Shown here in pieces: positions 25,219 through 40,465 of a stretch of DNA of 64,000 nucleotides. The stretch spans positions 1 through 64,000 of the forward strand of contig JAJFFJ010000083.1 of NCBI GenBank assembly GCA_021776685.1, given 5' to 3'. Position 1 is the stretch's first letter. Each line of letters opens with the position of its first letter. The notes below the pieces were generated by a model. It saw nothing but the letters and a program-made list of their open reading frames with translations. It made no database searches and was not told the DNA's origin. A program made the translations under genes and the position numbers. This DNA comes from Alphaproteobacteria bacterium. Its GTDB lineage: Bacteria > Pseudomonadota > Alphaproteobacteria > Bin65.

Positions 25219-26274
25219 CTATTTTGAGACTAATGGGTCGACACTAAGCACCGACTTTACAGTTGCCAATGCCCCCTCATCCAGCGCGGCGTACTGCTCC
25301 CGGATAATTCGCCAGCACTTGGCCTGATATTTGAATACATCCTGGCTGTAGCTGTGGCCGAGCGCTTCATAGCTGAAGGTTGTATCGCCTGCGTCGATGG
25401 CGGCGGCGTTGGCCGCGAGGAAGGGCAGGTAGACGTCGCCGGCAAGCGAGAGCAGGTCGCCAACCGGGTGGCCGTCAAGTGCGGCACCGTCCAGCCAATT
25501 GCCTTCTACGCCAGAGGCATCTTCCAGCACCTGCAGCCATTGGAAGGTCGCGGGTCCATGTTCGGCCATGACCGCGCGGGATGTGGGATCGGTGGCCAGG
25601 GATTCGAGCTGCCCGTACCAACCCATGTCGGCGAGCGACGCGCGGCTGCCGAACAGGAACAGGCTTTTAGCCTGAAGCGCCTGCATGATTGTGAGCAGGC
25701 GGCGATAGACCTCTTCGATCAGGGGCGCATTTTCCGGCGTGCAGCCGACCAGGGCCATGCGGCTCTGCTGGCGCCGGGCGAAATGCAAGCCGGCGTCGCG
25801 CTGGATATCCTCGCTATAGCCGCCGCCCAGCAGTTCCGTCGCCACAATGCGGCTCTTGAACAGCGCGTCCGTTTCATGGCCCCAGCGGTAGTGGAAGGCG
25901 ATCTTGACGCCCCATTCGTCGGCCATGTCCTCAAGAAGATGGGAGAGAAAGGCGAGCGCGGGATCGTCCGGCATCACTGAGCGGTCGGCGCGGCGTGCCT
26001 CCAATTCGTAGGCCAACGGTGTGGTATCGTTGCGATAGCTGTCATCCTCCGGAAACCACATGATCGGCACCACCGGCGGCCTGATATGCTGGATCTCCTC
26101 ATAAGCCGGTTTCGACACCGGGTCGTGCGGCAGTCCCTCGGGCACCCAGTCCAGCGACGCCGGAACCCAGTCGAATGGAATGCGCCGGTAGCGGAGGAGC
26201 GCCCGCATCTTCAGCGCATAGGGAGAGCCGATGGAGCCGAACAGGCGGTGGCGGCTGGTCATGCGGCCAGTCAT
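25219..26274 (-). CDS. Glutathione S-transferase-like protein, long form
   Basis: About 350 residues, much longer than typical GSTs (200-230). The N-terminal thioredoxin-like part starts RHRLFGSIGSPYALKMRALL, and a helical GST C-terminal domain with extra sequence follows. A second start, Met-Thr-Ser-Arg-His at residue 5, is equally possible. It overlaps the acyl-CoA ligase gene by four bases and is the last gene of a six-gene operon. GSTs in catabolic operons often serve in reductive dehalogenation, ether cleavage or isomerisation; which applies here is not known. Confidence 0.88.
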   Translation of the reverse strand: MTGRMTSRHRLFGSIGSPYALKMRALLRYRRIPFDWVPASLDWVPEGLPHDPVSKPAYEEIQHIRPPVVPIMWFPEDDSYRNDTTPLAYELEARRADRSVMPDDPALAFLSHLLEDMADEWGVKIAFHYRWGHETDALFKSRIVATELLGGGYSEDIQRDAGLHFARRQQSRMALVGCTPENAPLIEEVYRRLLTIMQALQAKSLFLFGSRASLADMGWYGQLESLATDPTSRAVMAEHGPATFQWLQVLEDASGVEGNWLDGAALDGHPVGDLLSLAGDVYLPFLAANAAAIDAGDTTFSYEALGHSYSQDVFKYQAKCWRIIREQYAALDEGALATVKSVLSVDPLVSK

Positions 26275-27806
26275 GAGGTTTGTCCTCCCGAATATTCCGC
26301 AAGCCAGGCGTCGCGCAGGTCCGGCTTCACCACCTTGCCGGCGGCATTGCGGGGAAAGCTCTCCATCAGGGTCACATGGCTTAAGCGCTGGAATTTAGCC
26401 GACACCCGCTCGTTGACCCAGCTGCGGAGATCATCTGGCGAGATTGTGCCATCGGCAATGACAGCGGCAACGCCGGTCTCGCCCCACTTCGCGTCTGGCA
26501 CCGCGAAGACCACCGCTTCCAAGACGGCGGGATGCTGGGTCACCACATCCTCGATGTCCCGCGGATAGACACTGACGCCGCCGGACTTGAACATGTCCTT
26601 CTTGCGGTCGACCAGAAAGAGGTAGCCGTCCTCGTCCACATAGCCGAGGTCGCCGGAGTACAGCCAGCCGTCGCGAATGGCGCCAGCGGTCAGATCGGGC
26701 CGGTTGTAGTAGCCAGACATGAGGATCGGCCCGCGACCCACGATCTCGCCGATTTCGCCGGCAGGCAGATCGCACCCGTCCTCGCCGACAATGCGCAGGT
26801 CGAATCCCGGCGGCGGTGCGCCGACCGAGCCGAGCTTCTCCGCCAGTTCCGTGCAGTCGAGCAACGTCTGGAACCCTTCCGCCAGACCGTAGAGTTCGTG
26901 CAGCCGGCCTGGTAGAGCAGCTTCTACCTGTTGCTTGTGCTCCAGATGCAGGGGCGCGCCGATGGTCACGAGGCATTTCAGGGTGTCGAACGCTGATGGA
27001 TCGAAGCTCGGGTGGTTGAGCAGCGCCACGATCTGGGTCGGCACCATCATCATGTGCGTGACGGCCTCCGTCCGAACCGTCTCTATCACCGCCGCAGGAT
27101 CGAACGCCCGGTGCAGGATGTAGCGCGCGCCCAGGTAGGCTGCCGGAAGGAAAGTCATGAAAGCGCCGTTGAAAACCAGCGCACCGGTGTGCAGCAGCAC
27201 GGACTCTGGCGCCATGCGCCAGGCGAGCGGATAGAGGGTGCTGTAGTGCCACCGCGCCCGGTGGCTCAAGGTGATGCCCTTGGGCTCGCCTGTAGTGCCA
27301 CTGGAATAGATGATGTTGTAGGGATCTTCGGGTTCTACGCCGGTCGGGGCGGGGGCGTCGCCCGGCGCATCGTTCACCAGGTCGGCATAGGTTCGGTACC
27401 CCGGCCGGCTTCCAGGCCCGACCCAAACATAACGGTCGTCCGCAATCTTCAGTTCGGCGCGCGCATCGTCGAGCGCATCACCGGTCTCCGGTGCGGCGAA
27501 GACGATCGCGGCCTCGGATTGGTTGAGGAGATTGATGATCGCCTGGCGCTGCAGCAACGGGCTCAATGGGACCGCGACAGCGCCTGTCTTCGCGCAAGCC
27601 CAGTAGATGCACAGCAATTCGAGGCAGTTCGGTAGCAAGGTCGCCACCTTGTCGCCTTTGGTTACGTCCGCCTGTATCAGGCCGTTGGCGAGCTGGTTTA
27701 CGCGGGTGTCAAATTCGGCATAGCTCAGGCAGCTGCCTTCGAAGACGACAGCTTCGTGACCGCCGCGGAAGCGGGCCTGGCGATCCAGAATACGTGTCAG
27801 GTCCAA
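26271..27806 (-). CDS. Acyl-CoA synthetase (AMP-forming acid:CoA ligase)
   Basis: 511 residues, full-length ANL-superfamily enzyme. The P-loop is YSSGTTGEPKGITLSH near residues 165-180. The adenylate motif is ELYGLAEG (the usual Thr of YGxTE is replaced by Leu), followed by GWLYSGDLGYVDEDGYL and the hinge DRKKDMFKSGG. The catalytic lysine is in RNAAGKVVKPDLR near residue 495. It would activate a carboxylic acid to its CoA thioester. It sits between the AhpD-like and GST genes, overlapping the latter. Confidence 0.95.
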   Translation of the reverse strand: MDLTRILDRQARFRGGHEAVVFEGSCLSYAEFDTRVNQLANGLIQADVTKGDKVATLLPNCLELLCIYWACAKTGAVAVPLSPLLQRQAIINLLNQSEAAIVFAAPETGDALDDARAELKIADDRYVWVGPGSRPGYRTYADLVNDAPGDAPAPTGVEPEDPYNIIYSSGTTGEPKGITLSHRARWHYSTLYPLAWRMAPESVLLHTGALVFNGAFMTFLPAAYLGARYILHRAFDPAAVIETVRTEAVTHMMMVPTQIVALLNHPSFDPSAFDTLKCLVTIGAPLHLEHKQQVEAALPGRLHELYGLAEGFQTLLDCTELAEKLGSVGAPPPGFDLRIVGEDGCDLPAGEIGEIVGRGPILMSGYYNRPDLTAGAIRDGWLYSGDLGYVDEDGYLFLVDRKKDMFKSGGVSVYPRDIEDVVTQHPAVLEAVVFAVPDAKWGETGVAAVIADGTISPDDLRSWVNERVSAKFQRLSHVTLMESFPRNAAGKVVKPDLRDAWLAEYSGGQTS

Positions 27807-27807
27807 G

Positions 27808-28413
27808 CTATACCTGCGGCGGCGGGAGGTTCTTCGGGCCTGAGGTATCCGCCATGCCTGCGGCGATCATCTCCCTGTAATAGTCCATGTAGCGGCCGGA
27901 CATTTTCTCGGGTGCGCCGCGGGCGCGGAAAAGGTCCTCGTCCCACTTCTTGTCGATGCCGTGGCCTTCGATCATGCGGTTGAACCAGTTCCAGCTGGCA
28001 CAGACGGTGATCGCCAGCGTCAAATCTTCCTCGTTCCAGCCGGCCTTGTAACAGGCGATGGCGTCATCGTCGGTCATCTGGCTGGGGGTCAGGGTCAGCT
28101 TGCGGACATATTTCAGAACCGGCTTGAAGCGATCCTCCACGGGCGCGGTGTCGATGTCGTCCACGAGCTTCTGGAACAGGTCCTCGTCGATACCGAGCGC
28201 CATGCAGACATTCTTGTGGGCGCCGAAGCAGAAGTCGCAGGCGTTCAGGAGCGATGTGAAGGCGGCGATGATCTCTTTCTCATTTTGCGTCGGCCCCGCG
28301 GGGTAGCTCATCAGCCGGTCGATGAAGTCCATATAGGGCTCGAACAGATCCCATTTGGACATCTGCAGCTGGGACATCGAGATGATGCCGTCATGGCTCG
28401 GGAAATAGGTCAT
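27808..28413 (-). CDS. AhpD/carboxymuconolactone-decarboxylase-like protein
   Basis: About 201 residues from ATG 28413, chosen because GAGGA lies just upstream; the frame extends to 28449. The AhpD-type redox motif is CDFCFGAH (C-x2-C-x3-H) near residues 68-75, within FTSLLNACDFCFGAHKNVC. Family members are peroxidase-related or ring-fission decarboxylating proteins. Two bases separate it from the acyl-CoA ligase gene. The exact reaction is unknown. Confidence 0.9.
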   Translation of the reverse strand: MTYFPSHDGIISMSQLQMSKWDLFEPYMDFIDRLMSYPAGPTQNEKEIIAAFTSLLNACDFCFGAHKNVCMALGIDEDLFQKLVDDIDTAPVEDRFKPVLKYVRKLTLTPSQMTDDDAIACYKAGWNEEDLTLAITVCASWNWFNRMIEGHGIDKKWDEDLFRARGAPEKMSGRYMDYYREMIAAGMADTSGPKNLPPPQV

Positions 28414-28445
28414 GGCTGGGTCCTCAGGGTGTCTGGTCCGCCGCC

Positions 28446-29429
28446 TCAAGCCGCCTCAAGCTTCCGGGCCATCTTCACCAGCAGATTGTCGGCGATGCCG
28501 GGGCGGCTCCACGGGCACACGGCAAGGCAGATTCCACAGGTCATGTTGTCGACGAAATATGGAATGCATTTGTCGAAATTCACGTACCATTTGCGTTCGC
28601 CGCGAACCATTTGCTTCTCACTGCTAATGGCGTCGGGCGGGCAGGCCTTGGTGCAGACCTGGCAGCTGGCGCAAAACATGTCGGCGCCAAAGACGTCCGG
28701 TGCATCGGCTTCGAGCGGCAGGTCGGTCAGCACCAGGGAGAGGCGAAAATTGGCGCCAAACTTCCGGTGGATCAGCGAGCCATGCTTGCCCAACTCGCCC
28801 ATGCCCGCCTCGATGGCGGCCGGGATCATCAGCACATCCTCGGTCATCGGCCCGGTCTTGGGCGCGCCGTACCAGCCCTGGCTGCGGACCCAGTTGGCAA
28901 GATGTTTGGACGTGTTGCCCGCCCGCTCATACTGGATCATGACCTCGATATAAGCGCTCTCCCCAGGCGCCGCGATCATGGCGTCGAAGTCCTGATCGAA
29001 GGCCATGACAACGGCATACTTGCCCTGCGGCGACGGCCTGTCGGGGTAGGCCCAATCGTCCCGCCACGCGGCGATGCCCACATCGTCCGCGCCAAGCTCC
29101 AGCGCCTTGGCTTTCAGGGCGGCGGTCCATCCACCGGCAGGCGTGTCCGCCGCCTCGGAAGCTACATCCAAAACCTCGATTTCGGCAGTGCGCTGGCGGT
29201 ACTTCCGTGCCTCGGCAATGGCCGCGTTGTCTTTGTCTTTTTCATAGAAGTAGTACATGACCGGCGCATGGGGCGTGGAGTCATCCTGCCGCCAGAACAC
29301 CGGGTTCGGCTGCCGCTTTTCAGTCTCGCCCAGTCCATTGATCTCGTTGCCCGAAATATCCGGCCACAGCTCCAGGACTTCCGGGTTGGGCTCCCACATA
29401 TCGGTGCCGGCATGGTCTTTCGGGGGCAT
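28446..29429 (-). CDS. Corrinoid/iron-sulfur oxidoreductase related to reductive dehalogenases (paralog 1)
   Basis: About 327 residues from ATG 29429 (GGAGAAAG upstream). The core reads MGELGKHGSLIHRKFGANFR followed by LSLVLTDLPL, matching the 'G.LG.HG..I...G...RL..V.TDLPL' corrinoid-domain signature shared by reductive dehalogenases and QueG. Two [4Fe-4S] motifs follow: C-x2-C-x2-C-x3-CP (CASCQVCTKACP, about residues 254-265) and C-x10-C-x2-C-x3-CP (ending CGICLAVCPWSRPG). KWYVNFDKC between them is also RdhA-like. There is no Tat signal, so it is cytosolic, and at about 330 residues it is shorter than respiratory RdhA (about 450-500). It is not typical QueG. The substrate is unknown. Confidence 0.85.
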   Translation of the reverse strand: MPPKDHAGTDMWEPNPEVLELWPDISGNEINGLGETEKRQPNPVFWRQDDSTPHAPVMYYFYEKDKDNAAIAEARKYRQRTAEIEVLDVASEAADTPAGGWTAALKAKALELGADDVGIAAWRDDWAYPDRPSPQGKYAVVMAFDQDFDAMIAAPGESAYIEVMIQYERAGNTSKHLANWVRSQGWYGAPKTGPMTEDVLMIPAAIEAGMGELGKHGSLIHRKFGANFRLSLVLTDLPLEADAPDVFGADMFCASCQVCTKACPPDAISSEKQMVRGERKWYVNFDKCIPYFVDNMTCGICLAVCPWSRPGIADNLLVKMARKLEAA

Positions 29430-29458
29430 ATCTTTCTCCGCTTGGCGTGGCTGCTGGA

Positions 29459-30430
29459 TCACGCGCGCCGACGCGCCATCTTCGCCACGAGGTTGTCAGC
29501 GATTCCAGGCCGGCTCCAGGGGCAGACGGCCAGACAGATGGCGCAGCCGTGATTGTCGACGAAGAACGGCACACATTTCTCGAAATCCACGTACCATTTG
29601 CGCTCGCCCCGGACCATCTGCTTTTCATCGGAAATGGCGTCGGGAGGACAGGCGTTGGTACACACCTGACAATTTGCACAAAAGTCGTCAGCGCCGAAAA
29701 CATCAGATGTATCGGGGTCCAGCGGCATGTCAGTCAGGACCATCGACAGGCGGAAGCTGGCGCCGAACCTCCGGTGAATCAGGGAGCCGTGTTTGCCGAG
29801 TTCGCCCATGCCCGACGCGATGGCCGGCGGGATCATCAGCACATCCTCGGTGGACGGGCCGGTCTTGGCTTCGGCGAACCAGCCCCGGTCGCGGATCCAG
29901 TTGGCCAGGTTTTTGGCGCTGCTGCCGGCCCGCTCATATTGCGCCATCATTTCGACAAAGGCGCTGATGCTGGGTGCGGGCTTCATCTCATCGTAGCTCT
30001 GGATGACCGCCAGAACGATGGCCCGGGTCCCCTTGGGCGCTGGGCGGTCCGGATAGGTCCATTCGGAATTCCAGACACAGATGCCCGCGTCGTCGGCTTT
30101 CAGGTCCAGCGCCGCCTGCTTGACGGCGCTGGTCCAGCCGCCGGCCGGTTCCGGCGCAACCTCTGATGCGATGTCATGAACCTCAATAGCATCGGTCCGT
30201 TCACGGAATTTGCGCGCCGGGGCCGTTCGCGGATCGGCCATGCCTTTTTCAAAGAAATAGTACATCGCCGGCGCGTGGGGCGTGGAGCCATCCGTGCGCC
30301 AGAAAACCGGTGTAGGCGGGCGCTTCTCGGCCTCGCCCAGGCCATTGATGTCGTTGCCGGAGACATCAGGCCAGATTTTCATCACCTCTGGATTTGGCTG
30401 CCACGCCTGAGCCGAGCCTTTAGAGGCCAT
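29459..30430 (-). CDS. Corrinoid/iron-sulfur oxidoreductase related to reductive dehalogenases (paralog 2)
   Basis: About 323 residues from ATG 30430 (GGGAGGGAAG upstream). It aligns with the adjacent paralog almost without gaps, roughly two-thirds identical by eye, with the same corrinoid signature (GELGKHGSLIHRRFGASFR) and the same cysteine spacing (CANCQVCTNACPPDAI; CAICLAVCPWSRPG). The second cluster differs in CVPFFVDNHGC. The N-terminal NPEVMKIWPDVSGNDINGLG is shared only with its partner. A heteromeric complex or sequential reactions are possible. No electron-donor gene is adjacent, so an outside ferredoxin or flavodoxin is needed. Confidence 0.85.
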   Translation of the reverse strand: MASKGSAQAWQPNPEVMKIWPDVSGNDINGLGEAEKRPPTPVFWRTDGSTPHAPAMYYFFEKGMADPRTAPARKFRERTDAIEVHDIASEVAPEPAGGWTSAVKQAALDLKADDAGICVWNSEWTYPDRPAPKGTRAIVLAVIQSYDEMKPAPSISAFVEMMAQYERAGSSAKNLANWIRDRGWFAEAKTGPSTEDVLMIPPAIASGMGELGKHGSLIHRRFGASFRLSMVLTDMPLDPDTSDVFGADDFCANCQVCTNACPPDAISDEKQMVRGERKWYVDFEKCVPFFVDNHGCAICLAVCPWSRPGIADNLVAKMARRRA

Positions 30431-30477
30431 CACTTCCCTCCCGCAATCCCGTTCTCGCAAATAGTCCTGCCGACTGC

Positions 30478-31095
30478 CTAGTCCTTGTGCGGGGCGTGGT
30501 CGCCCTCGACCATGTGGAACATGCGGCCGACGGGCTCCTCCCAGACCAGGTTCCGCTCCATGGCGCGGGCGGGCATGTCCTGGATGACATACTGGATGGC
30601 AGGTTCATCGCCGGTATTGATGTGCTCGTGAAGGCCCATCGACGGGCAGGCGAAGGTGTCGCCCCGCTCCCATTCAAACTTGTGGCCTTCGACGATGGAA
30701 TATCCCGTGCCCTGGACGATGTGATAGAGCGCGAAGCTGTTGTGCCGGTGGGGCAGGATATGTTCGCCCGGATTGAAGATTTGGATGCCGATGAAGGTCG
30801 AGGGCACGGCGCCGCCGGCGTCTCCGGTATCCTCGTTGACCAGGGCGATGAAGCGGCGGTCGGCCCGGCGCAGCGGATCGGCAGCAACCTCGTCCAGACG
30901 CGGCTTCAGGTCCTGCCAGCGCCAGAAGGCCGGGCGCACATTCTTCTTGATCAGGAAGGGATAATATTCGTCGTCGGTCATGAACTGGGCCCAGGGCGTA
31001 TCTACCGTGGCGTCGACTTCGTCGTGGCCTTCGGTGGTCTCCGCCATTTTCGTGCCATCCTTGGCGGCCTGGTCCGGTTTGATCTGTTCGTTCAT
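30478..31095 (-). CDS. Cupin-domain protein, possible ring-cleaving dioxygenase (gentisate-dioxygenase-like)
   Basis: 205 residues from ATG 31095 (GAGGGAGACGGAT upstream). A single cupin barrel is visible: motif 1 PGEHILPHRHNSFALYHIVQG (two His of the metal site, near residues 102-104) and motif 2 GDTFACPSMGLHEHINTGDE with further His. The pattern resembles the gentisate 1,2-dioxygenase/1-hydroxy-2-naphthoate dioxygenase group, but those have two cupin domains and about 340 residues, so this is only a half-size relative. It is the first gene of the operon and divergent from the LysR gene. Confidence 0.85.
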   Translation of the reverse strand: MNEQIKPDQAAKDGTKMAETTEGHDEVDATVDTPWAQFMTDDEYYPFLIKKNVRPAFWRWQDLKPRLDEVAADPLRRADRRFIALVNEDTGDAGGAVPSTFIGIQIFNPGEHILPHRHNSFALYHIVQGTGYSIVEGHKFEWERGDTFACPSMGLHEHINTGDEPAIQYVIQDMPARAMERNLVWEEPVGRMFHMVEGDHAPHKD

Positions 31096-31194
31096 ATCCG
31101 TCTCCCTCGTCACGCCGCCGCGGTTCGCGCGGGCGGCGGGTGCAGTATAGCTGAATTGGGCGGTATCGCAGGCGTGATCTTGGCGATCTATATT

Positions 31195-31229
31195 CATTTG
31201 TAAATGGAATGAAATTTATATAGTTCATT
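31195..31229. promoter_or_regulatory. Inverted repeats in the LysR / catabolic operon divergent region
   Basis: Two dyads lie just before the lysR start: CATTT-GT-AAATG at 31195-31206 and AATGAA-N10-TTCATT at 31208-31229. The region is strikingly AT-rich compared with its flanks. The second has the T-N11-A-like geometry of LysR-family sites, and both share ATTCATT-like half-sites. It is about 100-130 bases upstream of the cupin gene start. Likely operator for the divergent LysR protein (inference). Confidence 0.5.
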
Positions 31230-31235
31230 TCGATT

Positions 31236-32147
31236 ATGAATATGAATGATCTCGACTTGAACCTGCTCGTTATTTTCCGGGCGGTCATGCGCCAGCGCAA
31301 CATCTCCCGGGCGGCGGCTGACCTGGGCCAGTCCCAGCCCACCGTCAGCAACGCCCTTGCGCGCCTGCGCCGTCAGTTGGACGACCCGCTGTTTGTCCGC
31401 GCGCCGCGTGGCGTTGCTCCGACGCCCTATGCCGTCGGCATTGCACCCAAGATCGACGCGGCGCTGGATCTCCTGGCGGACAGCCTGACCCGGTCGGCCT
31501 TCGACCCGGCAACCGCGCGTCGGGATTTCTCCATCATCATGACGGACATTGCCGAAGCGGTGATCCTGCCCCAGGCCCTGCAATCCATCGGCGCCGAGGC
31601 GCCCGGTGTGCATTTTCGCACGCTGCAGCTGCCCAGTGTGGCGGCCGCGGCAGCGCTCCGGCGCGGCGATATCGATCTGGCCATAGGCTACTTGCCGGAA
31701 TTCGAAGCCGGGTTTTACCAGCAGACCGTCTTTGAAACCGACTATGTGGTCATCGGCGCGGCGGACAACCCGCTGCTGGCGCGACGGCTCACAACAGCGC
31801 GTTTCGCCCAAGCCCGCCATGCGCTGGCGGAAGCTGCCGGCACCGGCCACCATGTGGTCGAGCGTCTGCTAAAGCGGCAGGGGCTGGATTCGCAGATTGC
31901 CGCCCGCGTCCCGAGGTTCCTTTCACTGCCGCTGATCGTGGCCGCAAGCGATCTGCTGGCCACGGTGCCTCGTCCACTGGGAACCCTGCTCGCCGGTACG
32001 GCGGCGCTCAGGGTTGTCGATCATCCCCTCGACCTGCCGCCGGTGGATATCCGCATGTTGTGGCATGAACGGGTGCACCAGGACCCCGCCAGCCAGTGGC
32101 TACGCCGGCGTCTCGCCGGTGTCTTCGCCCGCACGGTATGGAAGTGA
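31236..32147 (+). CDS. LysR-family transcriptional regulator
   Basis: 303 residues. The N-terminal winged helix-turn-helix is LNLLVIFRAVMRQRNISRAA with QSQPTVSNALARLRRQLDDP, followed by a substrate-binding domain (residues about 90-300). Sequence style (DLNLLVIFRAVM, DDPLFVRAPRGVAPTPYA) matches the NodD/NahR/LinR-like subgroup that controls aromatic-compound pathways. It is divergent from the six-gene operon, which it probably activates in response to the pathway substrate. The start is ATG 31236; a second ATG follows two codons later. Confidence 0.94.
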   Translation: MNMNDLDLNLLVIFRAVMRQRNISRAAADLGQSQPTVSNALARLRRQLDDPLFVRAPRGVAPTPYAVGIAPKIDAALDLLADSLTRSAFDPATARRDFSIIMTDIAEAVILPQALQSIGAEAPGVHFRTLQLPSVAAAAALRRGDIDLAIGYLPEFEAGFYQQTVFETDYVVIGAADNPLLARRLTTARFAQARHALAEAAGTGHHVVERLLKRQGLDSQIAARVPRFLSLPLIVAASDLLATVPRPLGTLLAGTAALRVVDHPLDLPPVDIRMLWHERVHQDPASQWLRRRLAGVFARTVWK

Positions 32148-39058: not shown

Positions 39059-40465
39059 ATGCCGGACCAGTCTTACCGGACCTATCTCAAAAACCTTGAA
39101 CAGCAAGGCCACATGCTGCGTTTCACCAAAGAGGTGGATCCGCTGACAAACCTGTCAGCGATCGAATGGCGGGCCTATGCGGAAACCGGCAAGTCGAGCC
39201 TGTTCACCAACGTGAAAGGCCATCCGGGATGGCAGGTGGCGAGCCAGATTCTGGCGGACCGCACCAAATGGGCGCTGGCACTGGGCGTTGACGAAGATGA
39301 TCTGCTCGATTGGCTGAGCATCACGACCGAAACGCGAACGCCGTTGGTCGACGTAGGAGAAGCCGACGCCCCGGTGCAGGAAGTGGTCGAGATCGGTGAC
39401 GATGTAGATCTGGACAAGGTGCCGGCGGTCATCACCTCGGAGCATGACGGCGGGCGCTATCTCGCATCCGGCATGGCGGTCGTCCGTGATCCGGATACAG
39501 GCGGCCTCAACATGTCGATCCACCGCCAGCAGATCTTCGACCGCAACACAACAGGCATGATCATGCTGCCGCGCCATGCCCGGCGGATCTATGACAAATA
39601 CTGCGCCCGGGGTGAACCGATGCCGGTTTCCTTCTTCTACGGCGCCCACCCGGCGATCTTCTTTAGCGCCTCTTTCACCACTTCCATCGGCGCCAGTGAG
39701 TTGGAAATTGCGGGCTCCCTGATGGGCGAGGGGGTGCGCACCGTGAAATGTAAGACCAACGACCTTGTGGTGCCTGCCGAGGCGGAGATGGTGCTGGAAG
39801 GCGTGGTCATGCCGAATGAAATGCGGCCGGAAGGCCCGTTCGGTGAAGTGGTCGGCACCTATGCAGATGCGGGCGAGTCAGAGGTCTTTCAGATCAAGGC
39901 GCTGACCCGCCGGGCTGATCCGATCCACTACGGGATCCATTGCGGTTTTCCCGTCACCGATACCCAGGCGGTCATGGGACTGGGACTTGAGGCGGCCACA
40001 AAGGTCCACCTGTCGCGGGTTGAAGGCGGCATGGATCTGATGGACGTGCGTTGCCTGACCGTGTCCGGCAACATGGCGCTGGTCATCAAGTTACGGCCAC
40101 GGGTGGAAGGGCAGGCGAAGACGGCCCTGATGGCGGCGCTTTCCGGCCCGTATCTGCATCCCAAGCTCGCCATCGCCGTCGATCACGACATCGCCGCCGA
40201 CGACCTGCGTCAGGTGATGTGGTCGATGACCACCCGGGTTCATGCAGAGCGGGACGTAATCATGATTCCCAATGCCCGAACTTTTGCGCTGGACAAGGCG
40301 TCCGATGTGGCAGCATCCGGCAATGTACTGCACCGGGTTGGCACCAAATGGATGATCGACGCGACTATTCCGTTCGGTCAAACCGCCGACGGGCGCGACC
40401 TGTTCGAGATGGCCATGCCCTTGAACTATGACAGTGTCGCGCTCGAGGATTTCCTGCCTGAGTAG
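39059..40465 (+). CDS. UbiD-family decarboxylase
   Basis: 468 residues, near the family norm (about 490). UbiD enzymes reversibly decarboxylate aromatic or unsaturated acids with prenylated FMN supplied by UbiX. Visible segments are TYLKNLEQQGHMLRF at the N-terminus, GGRYLASGMAVVRDPDTG, NMSIHRQQIFDRNTTGM (about 145-161), RPEGPFGEVVGTYA (E of the catalytic E-R-E region) and KLAIAVDHDIAADDLRQVMW. No UbiX gene is in the window. Given other oxygenases and CoA-chemistry nearby, a catabolic rather than ubiquinone role is likely (inference). Confidence 0.93.
   Translation: MPDQSYRTYLKNLEQQGHMLRFTKEVDPLTNLSAIEWRAYAETGKSSLFTNVKGHPGWQVASQILADRTKWALALGVDEDDLLDWLSITTETRTPLVDVGEADAPVQEVVEIGDDVDLDKVPAVITSEHDGGRYLASGMAVVRDPDTGGLNMSIHRQQIFDRNTTGMIMLPRHARRIYDKYCARGEPMPVSFFYGAHPAIFFSASFTTSIGASELEIAGSLMGEGVRTVKCKTNDLVVPAEAEMVLEGVVMPNEMRPEGPFGEVVGTYADAGESEVFQIKALTRRADPIHYGIHCGFPVTDTQAVMGLGLEAATKVHLSRVEGGMDLMDVRCLTVSGNMALVIKLRPRVEGQAKTALMAALSGPYLHPKLAIAVDHDIAADDLRQVMWSMTTRVHAERDVIMIPNARTFALDKASDVAASGNVLHRVGTKWMIDATIPFGQTADGRDLFEMAMPLNYDSVALEDFLPE

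Follow-up and report, generated by a model that had tools for sequence, protein, structure and literature searches.

Two short cytosolic RdhA-superfamily proteins share an alphaproteobacterial operon with a cupin of the 5-nitrosalicylate 1,2-dioxygenase type

The question raised by positions 1 to 64,000 of contig JAJFFJ010000083.1 of Alphaproteobacteria bacterium (GenBank assembly GCA_021776685.1; this whole stretch of DNA is referred to as the window) is what two reductive dehalogenase-like proteins, Rdh1 and Rdh2, are doing in an operon that also encodes a cupin, an AhpD-like protein, an acid:CoA ligase and a large GST-fold protein, with a LysR-family regulator on the opposite strand. Most knowledge of reductive dehalogenases comes from strict anaerobes, and the oxygen-tolerant catabolic ones are few, mostly large fused proteins with ortho-halophenols as substrates. 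The sequence of the operon suggests that two Rdh proteins paired with a cupin resembling 5-nitrosalicylate 1,2-dioxygenase (5NSDO) may form a new route for halogenated aromatic acids in air. The reading favoured here, held tentatively and with somewhat less than even confidence, is that the genes serve the catabolism, by an oxygen-compatible route, of an aromatic acid carrying both hydroxyl and halogen substituents, the best guess being a halosalicylate such as 3,5-dihalosalicylate. The Rdh enzymes belong to a known superfamily and to an uncharacterised subfamily within it, and the make-up of the operon was met neither in the open-access literature searched nor in the other genomes examined.

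The identity of Rdh1 and Rdh2 was examined using profile hidden Markov models (HMMs), sequence searches, structure prediction and phylogeny. A comparison of RdhA and QueG profiles, proposed in a preliminary description made from the sequence alone, scored both proteins better as RDH, though below the cut-off of that model: TIGR02486 (RDH) gave 112.5 bits (E 4e-32) for Rdh2 and 101.7 bits (E 7e-29) for Rdh1, neither reaching the curated 160.35 bits, while the QueG model TIGR00276 (cut-off 200 bits) gave only ~56 bits for the pair. A sequence search of the PDB returned NpRdhA and a respiratory RdhA as the best matches of the pair, not QueG (phmmer of Rdh2 against NpRdhA, E 7e-29). The AlphaFold model of Rdh2, for which 41 family sequences were aligned as input, had a mean predicted local distance difference test (pLDDT) score of 92.7, and a Foldseek search with this model gave an E-value of 7e-17 and a template modelling (TM) score of 0.7 for NpRdhA compared to 1e-6 and 0.42 for QueG. 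The matches to NpRdhA and PceA, at E about 1e-16, indicate that the predicted fold contains the corrinoid-binding core.

The two proteins are 67–69% identical and each contains the complete cysteine set for two [4Fe-4S] clusters, consisting of a CxxCxxCxxxCP motif at 264 in Rdh2 and 261 in Rdh1, a second motif, CxxCxxxCP, at 309 and 306 and an additional distal cysteine at 299 and 296. No Tat-type RR motif was present within the first 80 residues of either protein. The motif search agreed with the two [4Fe-4S] motifs and missing Tat signals noted previously, while the corrinoid signature ascribed to both was exact in Rdh2 and altered in Rdh1, which has TDMPL instead of TDLPL. When the sequences were aligned on NpRdhA, Y426 and K488 corresponded to Y178 and R240 in Rdh2 and to Y175 and R237 in Rdh1, the Lys/Arg being absent from the QueG rows. 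Y426/K488 is the proton-donating dyad of NpRdhA (PMC7565698), and the study of JtRdhA names a conserved Y-K/R dyad as the source of the proton in dehalogenation (PMC10463259).

Two trees were calculated, a quick one of 77 rows and, owing to long-branch warnings in it, a reduced and more careful one of 63 rows. The Rdh pair fell inside a subfamily with an N-terminal SGN-x-INGLGE motif (support 94/94) that stands apart from QueG, from PceA and from the clade of NpRdhA and BhbA (100/100). Rdh1, Rdh2 and the orthologs of related genomes formed one clade (100/100), in which the branching order of Rdh1 relative to its neighbours was ambiguous. The subfamily extends over alphaproteobacteria, gammaproteobacteria and Acidobacteria; with a threshold of E 1e-50 it was detected in 22 of the 385 alphaproteobacterial genomes sampled, and no characterised members of it were found. 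A plasmid search for close Rdh relatives returned only distant RdhA/QueG proteins of <35% identity.

The HMM, phmmer, Foldseek and tree results and the catalytic dyad together identify Rdh1 and Rdh2, by sequence and predicted model, as cytosolic members of the RdhA superfamily, of the corrinoid/[4Fe-4S] type, rather than as QueG, in agreement with the label of RdhA-like given in the preliminary description. QueG, the epoxyqueuosine reductase, shares the cofactor set and core fold with the pair, and its weak profile match could be taken as a sign that the pair, like QueG, has RNA or a nucleoside as substrate and lies in this operon only incidentally. This explanation was rejected as extremely improbable, because of the low score, the separate clade, the low fold similarity and the missing dyad Lys/Arg of QueG, and because a separate true QueG is encoded on contig C132 of the same genome beside tgt and queA. 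A respiratory RdhA was also rejected, in view of the missing Tat motif and of the lack of a small membrane anchor gene (RdhB) among the operon genes. The missing Tat motif and the aromatic setting of the operon would suit a use in degradation, as in catabolic RdhAs in the wide sense.

When the Rdh pair was compared with the known cytosolic enzymes NpRdhA (Nitratireductor), BhbA (Comamonas 7D-2) and JtRdhA, the common features were the corrinoid fold, two [4Fe-4S] motifs, the Tyr-Lys/Arg dyad and the absence of a Tat signal. These enzymes are, however, duplicated or reductase-fused proteins of about 700–1100 residues, whereas Rdh2 and Rdh1 have single domains without a fused reductase and lie on a separate branch, outside the NpRdhA/BhbA class. 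Ortho-halogenated phenols were the substrates of every catabolic RdhA that had been characterised by 2023 (PMC10463259). Ros_A3X954, a cytosolic debrominase of a marine Roseobacter (PMC13101508), is another catabolic RdhA from a marine heterotroph. Similar Fe-S motifs occur in the host's own paralogs on contigs C45 and C97, a resemblance of motifs only, while the window pair is of a different subfamily (about 26–28% identity to the C45 and C97 proteins) in an operon of different composition. Binding of corrinoid and two clusters was shown by its authors for T7RdhA from Acidimicrobiaceae TMED77 (PMC10008544), which they describe as belonging to the PceA branch and docked with perfluorooctanoic acid, and which is set apart from the Rdh pair by that description.

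An indication of the substrate comes from the cupin. Its closest solved relative was 5NSDO of Bradyrhizobium sp. JS329 (PDB id. 8ch4; phmmer E 2.7e-37), followed by gentisate dioxygenases, and both 5NSDO and the window protein are single-domain monocupins with a 3-His iron site, formed here by H150, H152 and H190. Of the 15 active-site residues listed for 5NSDO (PMC10306065), 12 are identical in the window cupin, including the three iron-binding His and Arg56, Phe81, Gln85, Ser100, Tyr104, Val150 and Met154 (5NSDO numbering), and one of the three changes is Tyr58 to Phe116. According to that report, ring cleavage by 5NSDO takes place with 5-nitrosalicylate and 5-chlorosalicylate, whereas salicylate and gentisate are not cleaved, and its active site departs accordingly from those of the enzymes for the latter two compounds (PMC10306065). 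Given 8ch4 as the nearest relative and the 12 shared residues, the most likely interpretation of the cupin is that it acts on salicylates bearing an electron-withdrawing substituent, which narrows the aromatic-acid setting proposed earlier to a substituted salicylate. The role of 5NSDO is in nitroanthranilate degradation, a setting different from that of the window cupin, with no Rdh partner mentioned in the portion of the report consulted.

The coordinates of the seven genes are given in Table 1; their order and positions were as first described, as was the tight packing of the six minus-strand genes opposite the LysR gene. The junctions from the cupin to the GST are +17, -4, -4, +1 and -4 bases, a spacing that most naturally points to a single transcript whose genes are translationally coupled. 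Translation of Rdh1, Rdh2 and the cupin probably begins slightly downstream of the annotated starts, and purine-rich stretches precede the ATG codons at 30430, 29429 and 31095, respectively. A scan of the promoter and terminator regions found no informative sites, and an Rfam scan of 24–38 kb of the window returned no RNA elements. A UbiD-type decarboxylase, possibly acting on aromatic acids, is encoded a few kb from the operon at 39059–40465 (+).

Table 1. Genes of the operon and the divergent regulator, with positions in the window.
Gene	Position	Strand	Description
Cupin	30478-31197	-	Monocupin ring-cleaving dioxygenase, 5-nitrosalicylate 1,2-dioxygenase type (predicted); likely start ATG 31095
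Rdh1	29459-30460	-	333 residues, short cytosolic RdhA homolog; likely start ATG 30430
Rdh2	28446-29462	-	338 residues, short cytosolic RdhA homolog; likely start ATG 29429
AhpD-like / peroxidase-related protein	27808-28449	-	213 residues, CxxCxxxH; start may be ATG 28413
AMP-forming acid:CoA ligase	26271-27806	-	511 residues; AMP-binding and AMP-binding_C (Pfam)
Large GST-fold protein	25219-26274	-	351 residues, last gene of the operon; Pfam GST_N_3 above cut-off
LysR-family regulator	31236-32147	+	Divergent from cupin; HTH_1 and LysR_substrate (Pfam)

Over the operon, Pfam and NCBIfam models assigned one protein to the cupins and two to Fer4 with a match to RDH, and the remaining three to the AhpD/CMD type, the AMP-forming CoA ligases and the GSTs. 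The AhpD-like protein matched TIGR01926 below its cut-off (E 7e-19) and PDB entries 3c1l and 6k40, its CxxCxxxH motif spanning C71 to H78, and AhpD-like genes also adjoin Rdh genes at four other loci (L024, L025, L028 and L188). The nearest solved chains of the CoA ligase were the fatty-acyl-CoA synthase 8weu and the feruloyl-CoA synthetase 8wev, with 4-chlorobenzoyl-CoA ligase ranking lower, and comparison with these homologs gave no prediction of its substrate. The AlphaFold model of the GST (pLDDT 91.2) matched many GST classes in Foldseek with none dominant, and assignments as a xi-class hydroquinone reductase or a zeta-class maleylpyruvate isomerase were dropped since the fold search showed no class preference. 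This GST family, of ~340–350 residues, is broad in alphaproteobacteria, with matches in 69 of the 385 class genomes, the best of which are 40–52% identical and have none of the operon partners nearby. The regulator had been assigned to an aromatic-pathway subgroup of LysR; this was not supported, as its best models were of the BsrA/LeuO type, below their cut-offs and not specifically aromatic regulators.

The favoured pathway combines the cofactor fold, the dyad and the cupin type, all three established computationally, with a halogen, a substrate, an order of steps and an electron donor that we infer. In this scheme a low-potential donor from outside the operon, for which an NADPH-FMN reductase or a flavodoxin may be a candidate, would reduce the two clusters and then the cobalt to Co(I), allowing Rdh1 and Rdh2, each perhaps for a different congener, to strip a halogen, probably one in the ortho position to the phenolic hydroxyl, where the characterised catabolic RdhAs also act. 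The 3-halogen of 3,5-dihalosalicylate is ortho to the OH, and its removal would leave 5-halosalicylate, the type of compound accepted by the relative of the cupin. The cupin could then cleave this or another electron-poor salicylate between C1 and C2. The product of this cleavage is expected to be reactive, which would suit a role of the GST and the AhpD-like protein in isomerising or detoxifying it. The CoA ligase may activate the acid so formed or else the aromatic acid from which the pathway starts, and LysR may sense the substrate or product. The hint at the electron donor comes from other subfamily members, which are adjoined by NADPH-FMN reductases at three loci (L011, L032 and L188, the neighbour at L032 being grouped with that at L011), and from a flavodoxin-fold protein next to the host's own paralog on contig C157 (L038).

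An aromatic context for Rdh genes was found in several places. The closest ortholog of Rdh2 (76% identity, genome G001) adjoins a 4-hydroxybenzoate 3-monooxygenase (pobA) that scores above the equivalog cut-off of TIGR02360, and pobA is likewise close to the full-length RdhA gene on a plasmid of Nitratireductor sp. OM-1, an aromatic-acid context shared with the Rdh pair. Contig C97 of the host (L042, 5470–10838) carries a salicylyl-CoA 5-hydroxylase, which at 1073.6 bits falls just short of the cut-off (1078), divergent from an RdhA above the RDH cut-off and followed by a CoA ligase, which by its sequence is a second Rdh/CoA-ligase/salicylate-type cluster in the same genome. In genome G169 (L181, 6722–13456) Cupin_7, CoA ligase, alpha/beta hydrolase, FAD-linked oxidase and Rdh genes lie on one strand, a row that, judged from its gene content, partly parallels the window operon.

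Several observations weigh against the favoured pathway. The occurrence of its genes elsewhere was examined using Rdh2, the cupin, the GST and the AhpD-like protein as queries against up to 41 relatives and 385 class genomes, with a scan of contigs. The six genes were together in no other genome examined, an outcome that had been named beforehand as one that would refute the earlier interpretation, though the genus is represented by one genome; homologs of the Rdh, GST, AhpD-like and cupin proteins lie apart in other genomes, and a conserved six-gene operon was consequently rejected. Only the divergent cupin/LysR pair recurs, in genome G017 (72% and 50% identity), on a contig that stops right behind the cupin. 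Around the 62 Rdh loci compared, a CoA ligase lay within 6 kb in five, roughly what chance might give against an estimated background, homologs of the window GST or cupin were near none, and the surroundings were mixed for most family members. The operon contains no electron donor gene, and no reports of halogen release by members of the SGN-x-INGLGE subfamily were found. Two further cupin positions differ from 5NSDO, Trp138 being His192 and His152 being Gln206. In NpRdhA, S422 and R552 act beside K488 at the phenolic OH, and these contacts are V174 and F303 in Rdh2, where the adjacent E173 is a Glu across most of the subfamily. As the dyad is retained while this pair is replaced, the dehalogenase chemistry looks kept and the substrate recognition changed. 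Finally, CobN and CobA/CobO/BtuR were undetected in the genome and BtuB was found only below threshold, from which the cobamide is probably taken up from outside. Thus, of the corrinoid reductive step in an aerobic aromatic pathway that had been proposed, the RdhA type, the cytosolic location, the dyad, the oxidases and the aromatic gene set are borne out, while gene co-occurrence and the LysR subgroup are not.

The loss of the phenol-binding pair would also suit an unlikely alternative, in which the ligase first activates the halogenated acid, the Rdh pair dehalogenates the aromatic acyl-CoA, and a thioesterase or the cupin branch follows later. The CoA ligase lies within the same translationally coupled operon, the C97 paralog sits in its salicylyl-CoA 5-hydroxylase cluster, and the paralogs on C135 and C67 are near CoA ligase or CoA transferase genes; yet the operon has no thioesterase, CoA ligases are not enriched near the subfamily, this type of cupin cleaves free salicylates, and free phenols are the substrates of the characterised catabolic RdhAs (PMC10463259). 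It is likewise unlikely that, within an aromatic pathway, the subfamily reductively removes a non-halogen substituent, for instance a nitro, sulfonyl or ether group, or that it reduces some different electrophile, the dehalogenase dyad being kept owing to similar cobalt chemistry. The very mixed gene contexts, which by eye include pyrimidine reductase- and indolepyruvate oxidoreductase-like genes, the substrate-contact positions unlike those of NpRdhA, and the nitro group on the best-known substrate of 5NSDO would agree with such a role. The description of the Y-K/R dyad as the proton donor in dehalogenation (PMC10463259) and the resemblance of the host's own RdhAs to classes with demonstrated debromination argue against it.

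A quite improbable explanation is that a pathway for non-halogenated substrates of the salicylate/gentisate type was put together by chance or only recently, and that the Rdh genes were recruited into it for redox protection or are drifting. The composition occurs in one genome only among those examined, AhpD and GST suggest stress protection, and one paralog has lost the catalytic Tyr, but the six genes are tightly coupled, all cofactor and dyad residues are kept in both Rdh copies, and the cupin residues match an enzyme for electron-poor salicylates.

The host genome contains 12 RdhA homologs, comprising Rdh1, Rdh2 and proteins on contigs C8, C71, C135, C67, C157, C91, C45 (two), C136 and C97, in addition to three more distant proteins on C96 (two) and C50. 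Five of the paralogs exceed the RDH cut-off and four of the homologs sit next to the Sulfurospirillum RdhA reference, which forms a separate clade (100/98) with those from C91, C97 and C45. The C8 paralog (L034, 8200–9294) is the one without the catalytic Tyr (VAVHIARID), with Arg and the cluster motifs kept, and its neighbours look by eye like P450, thiolase and xanthine-dehydrogenase family genes. The C136 protein (L041, 7871–10736) is an RdhA of the NpRdhA branch lacking a reductase domain and adjoins a B12-binding-type radical SAM protein. Elsewhere in the subfamily, Kordiimonas sp. NAT158 carries five tandem Rdh genes on one strand (L031, 4690–10996), and at L009 and L016 an Rdh gene is divergent from genes read by eye as PreT/PreA dihydropyrimidine dehydrogenase-like. 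Two COX1-type haem-copper oxidase genes support aerobic respiration, in keeping with the aerobic setting first proposed.

The view that no pathway of this composition had been described agrees with the open-access literature searched, which contained none joining a reductive dehalogenase to salicylate/gentisate or bromosalicylate degradation in such an arrangement. A broader and rather unlikely possibility is that a widespread subfamily of single-domain cytosolic RdhAs dehalogenates aromatic acids as acyl-CoA in aerobes, combined here with ring cleavage by the cupin. NADPH-dependent reductive dehalogenation of halobenzoyl-CoA has been described biochemically in aerobes, and to our knowledge no gene has been assigned to it; our literature search on this reaction in aerobes found no paper. 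If the acyl-CoA proposal is true, the subfamily would be a genetic candidate for this activity. The 12 RdhA homologs and two haem-copper oxidases in a genome where CobN and CobA/CobO were undetected also raise the question of cobamide supply in organohalogen turnover. The operon gives a concrete and testable substrate class, and a compact subfamily tied to a halosalicylate-type dioxygenase would widen the range of natural and man-made organohalides open to aerobes.

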